Source: an uncultured Paraglaciecola sp. (GTDB lineage: Bacteria > Pseudomonadota > Gammaproteobacteria > Enterobacterales > Alteromonadaceae). From it: 45,161 nucleotides of DNA. This document shows positions 39,638 to 45,029 of this stretch, in pieces. The notes beneath the pieces are model-generated. The model saw nothing but the letters and a program-made list of their open reading frames with translations. It made no database searches and had not been told where the DNA came from. Every line of letters starts with the position of its first letter. Within the stretch, counting starts at the first letter, position 1. Position numbers and translations under genes: made by a program. The stretch spans positions 1 through 45,161 of the forward strand of contig NZ_CAJWCF010000027.1 of the NCBI RefSeq assembly GCF_913020055.1, read 5' to 3'.

Positions 39638-40330
39638 ATGACACGCTCAAAATTAACAACCGCGGTACTACTAGCTGCATTAACCGTCAGTACATCTGGC
39701 TGTATCATTCATGTAGGTGGAAACGATAAGAATGACAGTGACGGCATTGAATACAGCAGTGTATTTGGCGGAGTAGACATTGCCGAAAACAAACGAGTGG
39801 GTGACCTTTCATCGGTCAATGGCAATATCACCATTCAAGACAATGTCACTGCCCGTGATGTTAGTGCAGTAAACGGTAATATCGAAATAGGTAATAACGT
39901 CACTGTAAACGATTTATCAACCGTCAATGGCGATATTCAAACTCAAAACTCTTTATCAGCACAACGTGATGTCAGCACAGTTAATGGCAACATAACATTT
40001 GGTGAAAATTCAAAGGTTGATGAAGATGTCACAACTGTAAATGGTGACATTAGCCTAACGTCCACCACAGTCGGTGATGATATTACCACTAAAAATGGCA
40101 GCATTAGCTTACTAAAAGGCTCGGTTGTAGAAGGCGATATCGAATTTGAATCACAAGATAACAGCAGTTGGTGGGGTGAAAAATCTCGTGAGCACAATCC
40201 CCCAACGTTAACCATTGATGCTTCATCTGATGTAAAAGGAATCATTATTTTGCATCAAGTGGTGATTTTGGAAATCGACAACCCAGCTGTGTTAGCAAAA
40301 GTTGAACGTCGTTACAAAGGTCAAGAATAG
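39638..40330 (+). CDS. Repeat-containing lipoprotein with a predicted beta-helix (VNGNI repeats)
   Basis: This 230-residue protein has a lipoprotein signal (LTVSTSGC, lipid-attached C22). From about residue 56 to 165 it contains roughly six repeats of 17-19 residues on the pattern D(L/V)S(S/T)VNG(N/D)I...N..V, for example DLSSVNGNITIQDNVTAR and DVSAVNGNIEIGNNVTVN. The period suits a right-handed beta-solenoid, as in bactofilin-like or DUF4097-like proteins. The C-terminal region (about 170-230) is different and includes a hydrophobic IIILHQVVILEI strand. The gene is solitary, with a good ribosome site (AAAGGACAA). Function unknown; a structural envelope role is a guess. Confidence 0.82.
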   Translation: MTRSKLTTAVLLAALTVSTSGCIIHVGGNDKNDSDGIEYSSVFGGVDIAENKRVGDLSSVNGNITIQDNVTARDVSAVNGNIEIGNNVTVNDLSTVNGDIQTQNSLSAQRDVSTVNGNITFGENSKVDEDVTTVNGDISLTSTTVGDDITTKNGSISLLKGSVVEGDIEFESQDNSSWWGEKSREHNPPTLTIDASSDVKGIIILHQVVILEIDNPAVLAKVERRYKGQE

Positions 40331-40338
40331 CTAAACTT

Positions 40339-40368
40339 GGTGAGGTCGGCTTTTGCGTCGGCCTCACC
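40339..40368 (+). terminator. Probable hairpin terminator
   Basis: GGTGAGGTCGGC (40339-40350) pairs with GTCGGCCTCACC (40357-40368) using two G-U pairs. It is a strong stem but the following ATTTAGTT is a weak U tract. It separates the convergent lipoprotein and sulfotransferase genes. Confidence 0.6.
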
Positions 40369-40388: not shown

Positions 40389-41126
40389 CTAAGCAATAAT
40401 TCTTTTATTATAGAGTTGCTGATAAAAAGGCTGAACTTGGTTGACCACCGAAAGCTGCTCATCATTAAGCTGCAATTGTTTCTCTGTATAAGGCGCAAAA
40501 CCAGTAGAGTTTTCGACACTGTCATACCAATGTTTTGCCCAAACCCCATCACTGGTGCGGCCGCCTTTTGGCCAGTTCAACATTTTGGGCATAAATGGCA
40601 CACCTAACTTTTCGCACAACAATCTTAACGTTCTTTCAGGGTTTTTAAGCACATCATTAGAATCGACAATAGGGATATCTTGACCGGAAGCCTGACTAAT
40701 TTCTTGATACAACTCAAACTGCCTTTTAATGCCTATATCTTCGACCGAACAGACACCACGGCTATTAGTATAAGAATTAACCACCTGAGCGGGATCACGG
40801 ATCAAAAAACAATGTTGCAGATCTTTTGCCCAGGTTAAATCGAAACCGGCTAACATATGATGTGTCATATGTTTTTGATACTGCACGTTGCTTGAACACT
40901 CACCGTTGACAAGTTCATTCGCCACTTGCTCATAACTGCTGCTTTGACTCTGTAACACTTCATCAAAACACGGGTGTGGGCTGCGGGTTTTATTCAGATA
41001 AAATCCGTAAAATGGCTCATCGACTACTTGTGAGTCACTGCGATTTTCCCAACTACGCATCATCGCCGTAGAAATATTCCGAGGACCAGACCACATAGCA
41101 ATCCTATGGGTCTCTCTTTGGGTCAT
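40389..41126 (-). CDS. Sulfotransferase-like P-loop protein, paired with the aminotransferase
   Basis: This 245-residue protein has the sulfotransferase fold. The 5'-phosphosulfate-type loop is MWSGPRNISTAMM (11-23), and the 3'-phosphate site is LIRDPAQVVNSY (R110, S118). VVDEPFYGFYL and SDGVWAKHWYDSVENSTGF further mark the subfamily. From memory these segments match the N-terminal P-loop part of plant BCAT-like proteins (Arabidopsis At5g27410 type), in which it is fused to a class IV aminotransferase. Its start overlaps the stop of the aminotransferase gene by four bases (ATGA). It may transfer sulfate to, or otherwise activate, a compound handled by the aminotransferase. No sulfotransferase activity is proven for this subgroup. 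Confidence 0.85.
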   Translation of the reverse strand: MTQRETHRIAMWSGPRNISTAMMRSWENRSDSQVVDEPFYGFYLNKTRSPHPCFDEVLQSQSSSYEQVANELVNGECSSNVQYQKHMTHHMLAGFDLTWAKDLQHCFLIRDPAQVVNSYTNSRGVCSVEDIGIKRQFELYQEISQASGQDIPIVDSNDVLKNPERTLRLLCEKLGVPFMPKMLNWPKGGRTSDGVWAKHWYDSVENSTGFAPYTEKQLQLNDEQLSVVNQVQPFYQQLYNKRIIA

Positions 41127-42043
41127 ATAGCACTGCCTTGGGTTTCGGTTTCGACCAGCTGAATGTAAAGCTGCTGAAGTCGCGCTAACATAGGTTTTTC
41201 ACCCGTACCTATTATACGTCCATCTACCTGAGCAACAGCAGACAAACCGGCAAAAGTACCAGTAATAAACGCCTCGTCAGCTCCGTATACATCGGCCAGA
41301 GTGAAGTTACGCTCAAATACTTTTATATCATTGTTTTTGCATAGGTTAATGACGTTACGGCGAGTGATCCCATCTAAACAAAAGTCACCAGAAGAGGTCC
41401 ATACTTCACCATCTCGTGCGATAAAAAAGTGAGTTGAATTACAGGTTGCCACAAAACCATGGGGATCAAGCATCAAGGCTTCGTCAGCGTGAGCCTTAGC
41501 GGCCTGAATACAAGCAAAAATACAATTTAGTTTTGAGTGAGTATTAAGCTTGGGATCTTGTACATCAGGGTAACCTCTTCTTACATGGCTGGTGAAAAGT
41601 GATATGCCTGTATTATCTATCTGTTCAATGGCCGATTTATGTTCGGCAATAATCACAATGGTTGCGCCCGAAATGGTCACTCTTGGATCTTGATAAGGCG
41701 TACTTTTAATGCCTCTGGTCACCATTAAACGAATATGAACCCCATCAAACATCTGATTAGCATCACAAGTGTGTTGAATTCGTTCGACTAACTGCTCTTT
41801 CGTTAGTCCAATATCCATGTCTAAGGCTTTGGCTCCATCATAAAGCCTACGCATATGTTGCTCGATAAACGCCAGATGACCATTGTGTAACCGAATGCCT
41901 TCCCACACGCCATCACCCAATATAAATCCACTATCAAACACCGAAATTTTGGCTTCGCTGCGAGGGAATAACTCACCATTTATATTGATTAAAATATTCT
42001 CATTACGGGGATCTTGTTGATATTGATGTGTACCAGATGCCAT
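41123..42043 (-). CDS. Class IV aminotransferase (BCAT/D-amino-acid aminotransferase-like), atypical active site
   Basis: This 306-residue fold-type IV PLP enzyme has the domain start FDSGFILGDGVWEGIRLHNG, the PLP lysine K171 (NTHSKLNCIFA), and CLDGITRRNVINLC near 222, which holds the phosphate-side loop. In standard members the segment after the lysine reads like GxVAEGxxxNIF, whose glutamate contacts the PLP ring nitrogen; here it is GFVATCNSTHFF, with T200 at that place. The enzyme may therefore have unusual chemistry or be a variant subfamily. It is first in a two-gene operon with the sulfotransferase-like gene and overlaps it by four bases. The usual amino donor is unknown. A ribosome site GGATT lies about 8 bases before the ATG. 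Confidence 0.9.
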   Translation of the reverse strand: MASGTHQYQQDPRNENILININGELFPRSEAKISVFDSGFILGDGVWEGIRLHNGHLAFIEQHMRRLYDGAKALDMDIGLTKEQLVERIQHTCDANQMFDGVHIRLMVTRGIKSTPYQDPRVTISGATIVIIAEHKSAIEQIDNTGISLFTSHVRRGYPDVQDPKLNTHSKLNCIFACIQAAKAHADEALMLDPHGFVATCNSTHFFIARDGEVWTSSGDFCLDGITRRNVINLCKNNDIKVFERNFTLADVYGADEAFITGTFAGLSAVAQVDGRIIGTGEKPMLARLQQLYIQLVETETQGSAI

Positions 42044-44284: not shown

Positions 44285-44443
44285 ATGGCCAATTCAATTT
44301 TAAAAACTAAAGAGCAACAAGCTCGAGTTTTCACTCCTAAGATGAGCAATTTCGAGACAAGCTCTCGCTATGAAGGCTTATCCTTAAAAAAAGAAAATGA
44401 AGGCAAGTCTCTCAAAGAACTACAATTAAAGTATGCGCGATAA
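44285..44443 (+). CDS. ficA: Class I Fic antitoxin (FicA/YhfG-like), 52 aa
   Basis: This short 52-residue protein is encoded directly before the Fic toxin. It has the inhibitory-helix motif (S/T)xxxE(G/N) as SSRYEG (S26, E30, G31). In class I Fic systems the glutamate of this motif blocks productive ATP binding in the toxin. The N-terminal LKTKEQQARVF and the general layout resemble E. coli YhfG. Its last 11 bases overlap the toxin gene, which starts at 44433, so the two are translationally coupled. An exceptional GGGGGGA ribosome site precedes the ATG, which fits antitoxin being made in excess. Motif and position together make the call firm. Confidence 0.88.
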   Translation: MANSILKTKEQQARVFTPKMSNFETSSRYEGLSLKKENEGKSLKELQLKYAR

Positions 44444-45029
44444 GTACGGTGTAAGTCAGGATAATTATTGTTACCCCAACTCCGATGTACTGAAAAACAA
44501 ATTAAATATTCTAGATGAGACTACTTTAGAAGATGCAGAATTAGCATTTACCGCTGTTAGATATAGCGAATATTCTTCCGCTATATCATCCATAAATTCA
44601 TTCAATTTAACTCACCTAAAAGCGCTACACCAACACCTTTTTCAAGATGTGTTTGAATGGGCCGGGGAAATAAGAACGGTAGATATATCAAAAGGTTTGA
44701 CTCGATTTTGTACATGTCAGCGCATTGAGCAAGAAGCCACAAAACAATTTTCTAGACTCCCATTGCTTCTAAATATTAATTCGACAGAAGAGTTAATAAC
44801 AGTCATTGCTGATATCTTTTGTGAACTCAATATTATCCATCCATTTCGTGAAGGTAACGGAAGAACTCAGCGTTTTTTCTTTGAGGAATTATTCTTCTTT
44901 TTAGGATTAAATGTAGAGTGGCCAAACATCAAAAAAGACAAATGGGTTGAGGCAAATATCCATGGGTACAATGGTAATCTTAAGCCTTTAGTTCAGATAT
45001 TAACTGACGCCACATCGTTAGACATATAG
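44433..45029 (+). CDS. fic: Fic-domain toxin (adenylyltransferase), class I
   Basis: This 198-residue protein has a complete Fic motif HPFREGNGRTQR (136-147), fitting HxFx(D/E)GNGRxxR with catalytic H136, and the flap region before it (about 75-95, VDISKGLTRFC). Fic enzymes move AMP from ATP to a hydroxyl of a target protein; homologous FicT toxins modify DNA gyrase and topoisomerase IV. N-terminal similarity to E. coli Fic (DKYGVSQDNYCYPNSDVL) and the 11-base overlap with an antitoxin gene support a toxin-antitoxin system. It carries no internal SxxxEG helix of its own that I can see, as expected for class I. Confidence 0.92.
   Translation: MRDKYGVSQDNYCYPNSDVLKNKLNILDETTLEDAELAFTAVRYSEYSSAISSINSFNLTHLKALHQHLFQDVFEWAGEIRTVDISKGLTRFCTCQRIEQEATKQFSRLPLLLNINSTEELITVIADIFCELNIIHPFREGNGRTQRFFFEELFFFLGLNVEWPNIKKDKWVEANIHGYNGNLKPLVQILTDATSLDI

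Follow-up and report, generated by a model that had tools for sequence, protein, structure and literature searches.

On the 45,161-nt stretch of Paraglaciecola DNA that was analysed here (the window), a gene for a class IV aminotransferase-fold protein (AT) is followed by one for a P-loop protein of the Sulfotransfer_5 family (ST), and the arrangement raises the question of what reaction the two products carry out and whether they carry it out together. The genes overlap as the preliminary description of this DNA had reported: bases 41126..41123 read ATGA, which joins the ST start codon to the AT stop codon. The coordinates of the features discussed below are collected in Table 1.

Table 1. 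Features of the AT-ST region of the window, with the conservation of individual residues in the AT family, its paralogues and aligned ST sequences
Feature	Coordinates	Strand	Observation
AT, class IV aminotransferase-fold protein	41123..42043	-	306 aa; upstream gene of the pair; Schiff-base lysine absent
R66 codon, phosphate-cup Arg (Halhy R52), kept	41846..41848	-	R 142/142
N167 codon, Schiff-base lysine position	41543..41545	-	N 142/142 family loci; K 14/14 paralogues
H169 codon, new near-invariant His, two residues past N167	41537..41539	-	H 141/142; G/T/V/I in paralogues
K171 codon, position of Tyr contacting PLP phenol oxygen in Halhy	41531..41533	-	K 126, R 16 of 142
T200 codon, position of Glu contacting PLP N1	41444..41446	-	T 126, S 16 of 142; E 14/14 paralogues
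N202 codon, new invariant Asn, two residues past T200	41438..41440	-	N 142/142; A/S/T in paralogues
I226 and T227 codons, phosphate cup (Halhy I202, T203), kept	41363..41368	-	I 120, V 22; T 142/142
T263 codon, phosphate cup (Halhy T239), kept	41255..41257	-	T 141, S 1 of 142
ATGA overlap, ST start codon and AT stop codon TGA	41123..41126	-	Read from sequence
ST, Sulfotransfer_5 P-loop protein	40389..41126	-	245 aa; downstream gene of the pair
ST residues 12-23 WSGPRNISTAMM, nucleotide-binding (5'-phosphosulfate) loop	41058..41093	-	W12 S13 G14 P15 R16 N17 S19 T20 M23 invariant, 18 ST rows
ST residues 108-119 LIRDPAQVVNSY, 3'-phosphate-binding type motif	40770..40805	-	L108 R110 P112 V115 S118 Y119 invariant, 18 ST rows
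12-pair hairpin, possible shared terminator	40339..40368	.	In the gap separating the ST stop from the convergent gene 39638..40330

Terminator-like sites such as this hairpin numbered 2, against 1.5 expected in shuffled sequences. The convergent gene (39638..40330, forward strand) encodes a lipoprotein-like protein resembling DUF4097 and bactofilin proteins, with repeated VNGNI-type motifs, and a Fic/DOC protein (PF02661, 6.1e-18; the top NCBIfam match, PRK10347, was slightly below cut-off) is encoded at 44433..45029 on the forward strand. Genes of the PhyH, Gfo/Idh/MocA, aldolase II and MR/MLE families also lie in the window, and several of them are common to up to three relatives of the same genus. 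None of these four was found beside AT at loci elsewhere, so we rejected them as pathway partners and regard them as probably unrelated to the pair.

The sulfotransferase-fold partner

ST matched the Pfam family PF19798 (Sulfotransfer_5) with an E-value of 6e-59 and 199.6 bits, against a gathering cut-off of 23.2, while no NCBIfam model matched it above cut-off. Its predicted fold was confident (pLDDT 94.2, pTM 0.90). Among 30 Foldseek matches with E ≤ 0.001, the best 19 were sulfotransferases, and adenylate kinases appeared from rank 20. The nearest fold was that of the CurM domain 4gbm (E 1.2e-7), and CurM also headed the sequence matches in the PDB (3.3e-4). ST shares its fold and type of nucleotide loop with CurM and the olefin-synthase sulfotransferases (4gbm and 4gox, Foldseek ranks 1 and 5), but identity is only about 17%, and those two are domains of polyketide synthases that act on carrier-bound chains.

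The motifs WSGPRNxST and LxRxPxxVxxSY were invariant in the 18 aligned ST sequences. We presume, from the consensus of the sulfotransferase superfamily, that they form the 5'-phosphosulfate loop and the 3'-phosphate motif, respectively. In fold and in both motifs ST resembles the PAPS-dependent sulfotransferases, and sulfo transfer from PAPS is predicted. Synthesis of PAPS is possible in the genome from which the window derives, because an APS kinase gene is present there.

A rebuilt cofactor site in AT

AT matched the Pfam family PF01063 (Aminotran_4; 3.9e-42, 145.1 bits against a cut-off of 28.5). It also matched 18 NCBIfam families, none of them over the curated cut-off (the best, NF006185, scored 245.2 against 363 bits). 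The best PDB match was 7z79 (1.5e-97), followed by 9j32; by their titles, these are an aminotransferase-like protein of Variovorax paradoxus and its N174K mutant. A Foldseek search with the AT model likewise matched 7z79, together with branched-chain aminotransferases. The genome of the window holds a single AT of the lysine-less kind, and other class IV matches there were at most 32% identical to it.

Conservation was assessed across 142 AT family loci (46 from the genome set, 80 from named genome contigs and 16 from plasmids) and compared with 14 ordinary class IV paralogues. The named loci, as the best 80 of at least 582, are biased to close relatives. Two of the 142 loci, L061 and L118, belong to one genome; the plasmid loci include several near-copies, and 5 of 22 plasmid records were left out. 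The Schiff-base lysine of 5mqz aligned with Asn167 of AT in a gapless stretch, and lysine was found at positions 166-168 in none of the 142 family members. For the Halhy D-amino acid transaminase, excerpts of the published work (PMC8401098) name K143 as the Schiff-base residue, E176 as the contact of PLP N1, Y147 as that of the phenol oxygen, and R52, I202, T203 and T239 as phosphate contacts. From K143 through T239, the spacing in AT is identical residue for residue, with an offset of 24. Read against these positions, the ring and aldimine contacts of AT are all replaced (Lys by Asn, Glu by Thr or Ser, Tyr by Lys or Arg) and the phosphate cup is intact. AT shares its fold, phosphate cup and overall length with branched-chain and D-amino acid transaminases (5mqz, 5e25 and Halhy 7p7x), but differs from them in the catalytic lysine, the N1 glutamate and the phenol-oxygen tyrosine. 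Arg171 was accompanied by Ser200 in 16 of 16 loci. Beside His169 and Asn202, Asn173 (141/142) is a further new residue close to these contacts, and at a greater distance Trp47, His103, Arg105, Glu134 and Asp163 are conserved in 142/142 each. The predicted AT model is poor exactly at residues 161-169 (pLDDT about 40), and side-chain directions there are not fixed by it.

The threonine that the preliminary description placed at the usual position of the N1 glutamate was recovered in the alignment, as threonine or serine at every family locus and glutamate in every paralogue. Its wider claim of an altered PLP site was correct with respect to Thr200 and understated the change, for the catalytic lysine itself is Asn167. 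The class IV assignment is supported by the Aminotran_4 fold and profile, but the name aminotransferase is probably wrong because both the catalytic lysine and the glutamate are missing from the site. The database labels of genes of this family (aminotransferase or D-amino acid transaminase) are doubtful for want of the lysine. Since none of Lys, Glu and Tyr is retained, we set aside the ordinary transaminase as the default reading; judged from its residues, AT does not appear to be one. That it could still be an ordinary, slow transaminase, using Lys171 or no lysine at all, seems to us quite improbable. Lys171 lies four residues past Asn167 and is present in 126 of the 142 loci, and an engineered Lys-to-Asn D-amino acid transaminase reportedly keeps partial reactions. 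Against this, position 171 is arginine in 16 loci, all of them with Ser200, the glutamate and tyrosine are replaced too, and the N174K mutant of the Variovorax protein has been solved, which suggests that its depositors took the asparagine as an anomaly. A Schiff-base lysine moved to position 171 was likewise rejected as a general explanation because of the same 16 arginines.

A site in which all three ring and aldimine contacts have changed and the phosphate-cup residues have not might also belong to a protein that works without B6. In that case, the cup would grip the sulfate or phosphate of a substrate, and Asn167, His169, Lys171, Thr200 and Asn202 would make up a new active site of the hydrolase, isomerase or lyase type; the partner ST, if a true sulfotransferase, makes sulfate esters. 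We hold this to be doubtful, as a cup kept so exactly fits PMP or PLP too.

The sequences of the window and of the relative G017 gave a dN/dS of 0.045 for AT and of 0.13 (NG86) or 0.088 (YN00) for ST, values that rest on this pair only, with dS of 1.0-1.4, near saturation (two other genome pairs had reached it). Purifying selection acts on both genes. Together with the invariant new residues, the dN/dS ruled out a pseudogene; the kept cup, the near-invariance of His169 and Asn202 and the low AT ratio indicate that the site was rebuilt and has not decayed. In a quick tree of 105 rows, which retained part of the 80 named loci, left the catalytic columns in the alignment and drew long-branch warnings, the 91 Asn rows were separated as a single clade from the 14 Lys rows (SH-aLRT 100).

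The closest known protein is that of V. paradoxus (7z79, 2022; N174K mutant 9j32, 2025), which resembles AT over its whole length at about 50% identity, with asparagine at the lysine position and the same fold. It differs from the AT of the window in having arginine instead of Lys171, and it carries the motif of the Arg171 subfamily, RLNSHSRLN. To judge by the titles, the lysine-less state of this one member was evidently known to the depositors. In the open-access literature, to which our search was confined, no paper was found on the 7z79 protein or on the AT family and its gene context. The present analysis adds the loss of the lysine in every family member examined, the rebuilt site and the coupling to a sulfotransferase.

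Linkage of AT to ST, and loci without it

The preliminary description had supposed the sulfotransferase-aminotransferase pair to be conserved, and mapping across genomes agreed with it: at 107 of 142 loci, ST was encoded on the strand of AT and no more than 2.6 kb from it, so that the two genes are usually linked. In the genome set this was true of 32 of 46 loci (ST downstream in 30 and upstream in 2). ST was downstream of AT at 75 of the 80 named loci, within 207 bases at 70 and with 0.9-2.5 kb inserted at 5; at three of the five named loci without ST, the contig breaks off no more than 53 bases from the AT match. A linked ST was found at 0 of 16 plasmid loci. AT preceded ST in 105 of the 107 linked loci, none of which contained a fused AT-ST reading frame.

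Among 398 Pseudomonadota genomes, that of the window included, AT was present in 41 and ST in 38. The two occurred together in 37 genomes; 4 had AT alone, 1 had ST alone (a weak match of 62 bits) and 356 had neither (Fisher p 1.9e-46, ignoring relatedness). A lysine-less fold type IV family with a sulfotransferase is therefore carried by about a tenth of the sampled Pseudomonadota genomes. Within a set of 40 relatives, the same 7 carried intact AT and ST, 32 carried neither, and one, G020, carried fragments of both (Fisher 6.5e-8, with G020 left out and relatedness ignored). PF19798 was above cut-off in 0 of 14 control genomes, and G017 had, besides its ST, another PF19798 match, a weak one of 44.6 bits. 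These data show that AT and ST are tightly coupled and inherited together. ST is not obligatory everywhere for AT, because 4 of the 41 AT genomes were without any ST; of the 14 genomes with an unlinked AT, 10 had ST elsewhere.

In G020, which belongs to the same genus as the window, AT fragments lie in several frames with stops (locus L099, contig C297), and contig C123 carries a partial ST (profile positions 73-221); the two genes seem to be decaying together. At 19 of the 80 named loci, those of sphingomonads and relatives, the pair was seen by eye beside pyruvate dehydrogenase E2- and lipoamide dehydrogenase-like genes, a chromosomal position whose stability suggests a housekeeping role.

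After the three contig-end loci were set aside, 32 loci without a linked ST remained. Amino-acid ABC permease or binding-protein genes were found near AT at 19 of these and at 0 of the 107 linked loci (Fisher 2.9e-15, ignoring relatedness; the queries came from L214, L215 and L217, themselves among the 19 positives, and the fetched stretches differ in length). Such importer genes were present at 12 of 12 ST-less loci with Arg171 and at 7 of 20 with Lys171; in the Arg171 subfamily as a whole (n = 16), an amino-acid importer adjoins AT in 12 and ST adjoins it in 4. The locus of Thioclava electrotropha, for example, comprises genes for a GntR regulator, a binding protein, two permeases, an ATPase, AT, a chloride channel and ProC, and importer loci were also found in Agrobacterium salinitolerans and Paracoccus versutus. 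Other transporters near ST-less AT were TRAP, TAXI TRAP and, at L029, L112 and L113, an NhaC antiporter. NhaC (3 loci), a chloride channel (6), ProC (5) and MmgE/PrpD (5) are genuine recurrent neighbours, but they led to no substrate.

The tight co-occurrence with ST and the loss of the catalytic lysine in every member examined would also be consistent with AT being a non-catalytic scaffold, sensor or regulatory subunit, serving ST or amino-acid uptake. We consider such a role unlikely: His169, Asn202, Glu134 and Asp163 are invariant or nearly so, which suggests chemistry, and AT is also found without ST, in the importer operons.

Two further features of the AT neighbourhoods were recorded. 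A ClcB-like chloride channel gene lies in or near the AT operon at six loci, where an anion, chloride or some other, may arise as a by-product or serve as a counter-ion. A sulfatase beside AT was discarded as a sign of sulfated substrates, since it occurred at two loci only (L216 and L217, the latter a query); the L217 enzyme may serve choline sulfate, because it scored as a true choline-sulfatase (591.6 bits against a cut-off of 433.45).

A possible reaction of the pair

Taken together, the pair almost certainly consists of a sulfotransferase-fold protein and a fold type IV protein with replaced ring contacts and an intact cup, held under purifying selection and inherited together. We consider it reasonably probable that the two serve one pathway acting on an amino-acid-like compound. 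The lysine has been lost, yet both genes are strongly conserved and travel together, and for this reason the pair probably performs a non-standard reaction.

The CurM sulfotransferase sulfates a hydroxyl and thereby makes it a leaving group. In a comparable manner, ST would sulfate the hydroxyl of an amino- or keto-acid from PAPS. AT would hold PMP or PLP non-covalently through its phosphate cup, the bound cofactor would form an adduct with the amino- or keto-acid, and, with His169 replacing the lysine as acid/base, AT would eliminate the sulfate. At loci that lack a linked ST, an amino-acid transporter would bring the substrate in. Precedent comes from the PMP-dependent sugar 3-dehydratases ColD, E1 and SpnQ, in which, as described in excerpts of PMC8987622, an aminotransferase fold has lost its lysine to histidine and become an elimination enzyme: PMP forms a Schiff base with the keto substrate and the C3-OH is expelled. 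Elimination by AT is proposed because its kept cup, lost lysine and gained histidine recall these enzymes, which are nonetheless of fold type I, have Lys-to-His in place of Lys-to-Asn, act on nucleotide sugars and are not homologous to AT. We infer the binding of B6 or PMP, the base role of His169, the sulfation of the AT substrate and its amino-acid nature. The full mechanism, sulfation by ST and then elimination by AT with non-covalent B6, is a tentative one. So is its broader form, a widespread two-enzyme pathway not assembled before, in which ST would activate an amino- or keto-acid and the lysine-less AT, its site rebuilt around Asn-His-Lys/Arg and Thr/Ser-Asn, would remove the sulfate, in a B6-dependent or B6-free manner, perhaps with both activities fused in plants.

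The two steps might also run in the opposite order, AT generating 2-aminoacrylate or another enamine, which ST would then sulfonate, so that a carbon-sulfur bond is formed and cysteate or a similar sulfonate results. For taurine synthesis, a PAPS-dependent 2-aminoacrylate C-sulfotransferase activity has been described, and the family is common among marine alphaproteobacteria. Even so, we judge this order very unlikely, as no paper linking that activity to either family was found in the open-access literature and the gene neighbourhoods examined held no pointer to sulfonates.

Elimination by AT is the preferred, if tentative, reading. The family offers a testable case of the re-use of a B6 enzyme fold, and the importer operons offer a route to the substrate. 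According to the preliminary description, plant BCAT-like proteins of the At5g27410 type join an ST-like domain to an AT-like one that follows it in the same chain. The motifs given there (WSAPRSLSTS, VVDEPLY, DGVWAPWWY) resemble those of bacterial ST, the consensus of which reads WSGPRNxSTA, VVDEPFY and DGVWAPHWY. From a fusion of that kind the bacterial loci would differ in having separate genes in the order AT then ST. No paper containing At5g27410, At3g05190 or the motif WSAPRSLS was found in the open-access literature. Should the plant fusion prove homologous, solving the bacterial case would also assign a function to a plant enzyme that has yet to be characterised.

Finally, the neighbours of ST itself were judged by eye at two sets of loci. 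At L195-L199, where ST is separated from AT in several Rhodobacteraceae-like genomes (a family name deduced here), it lies near msrA- and argG-like genes. In two genomes of one genus (L200 and L202) it lies near adenine deaminase- and AMP nucleosidase-like genes, the products of which could recycle PAP-derived AMP.
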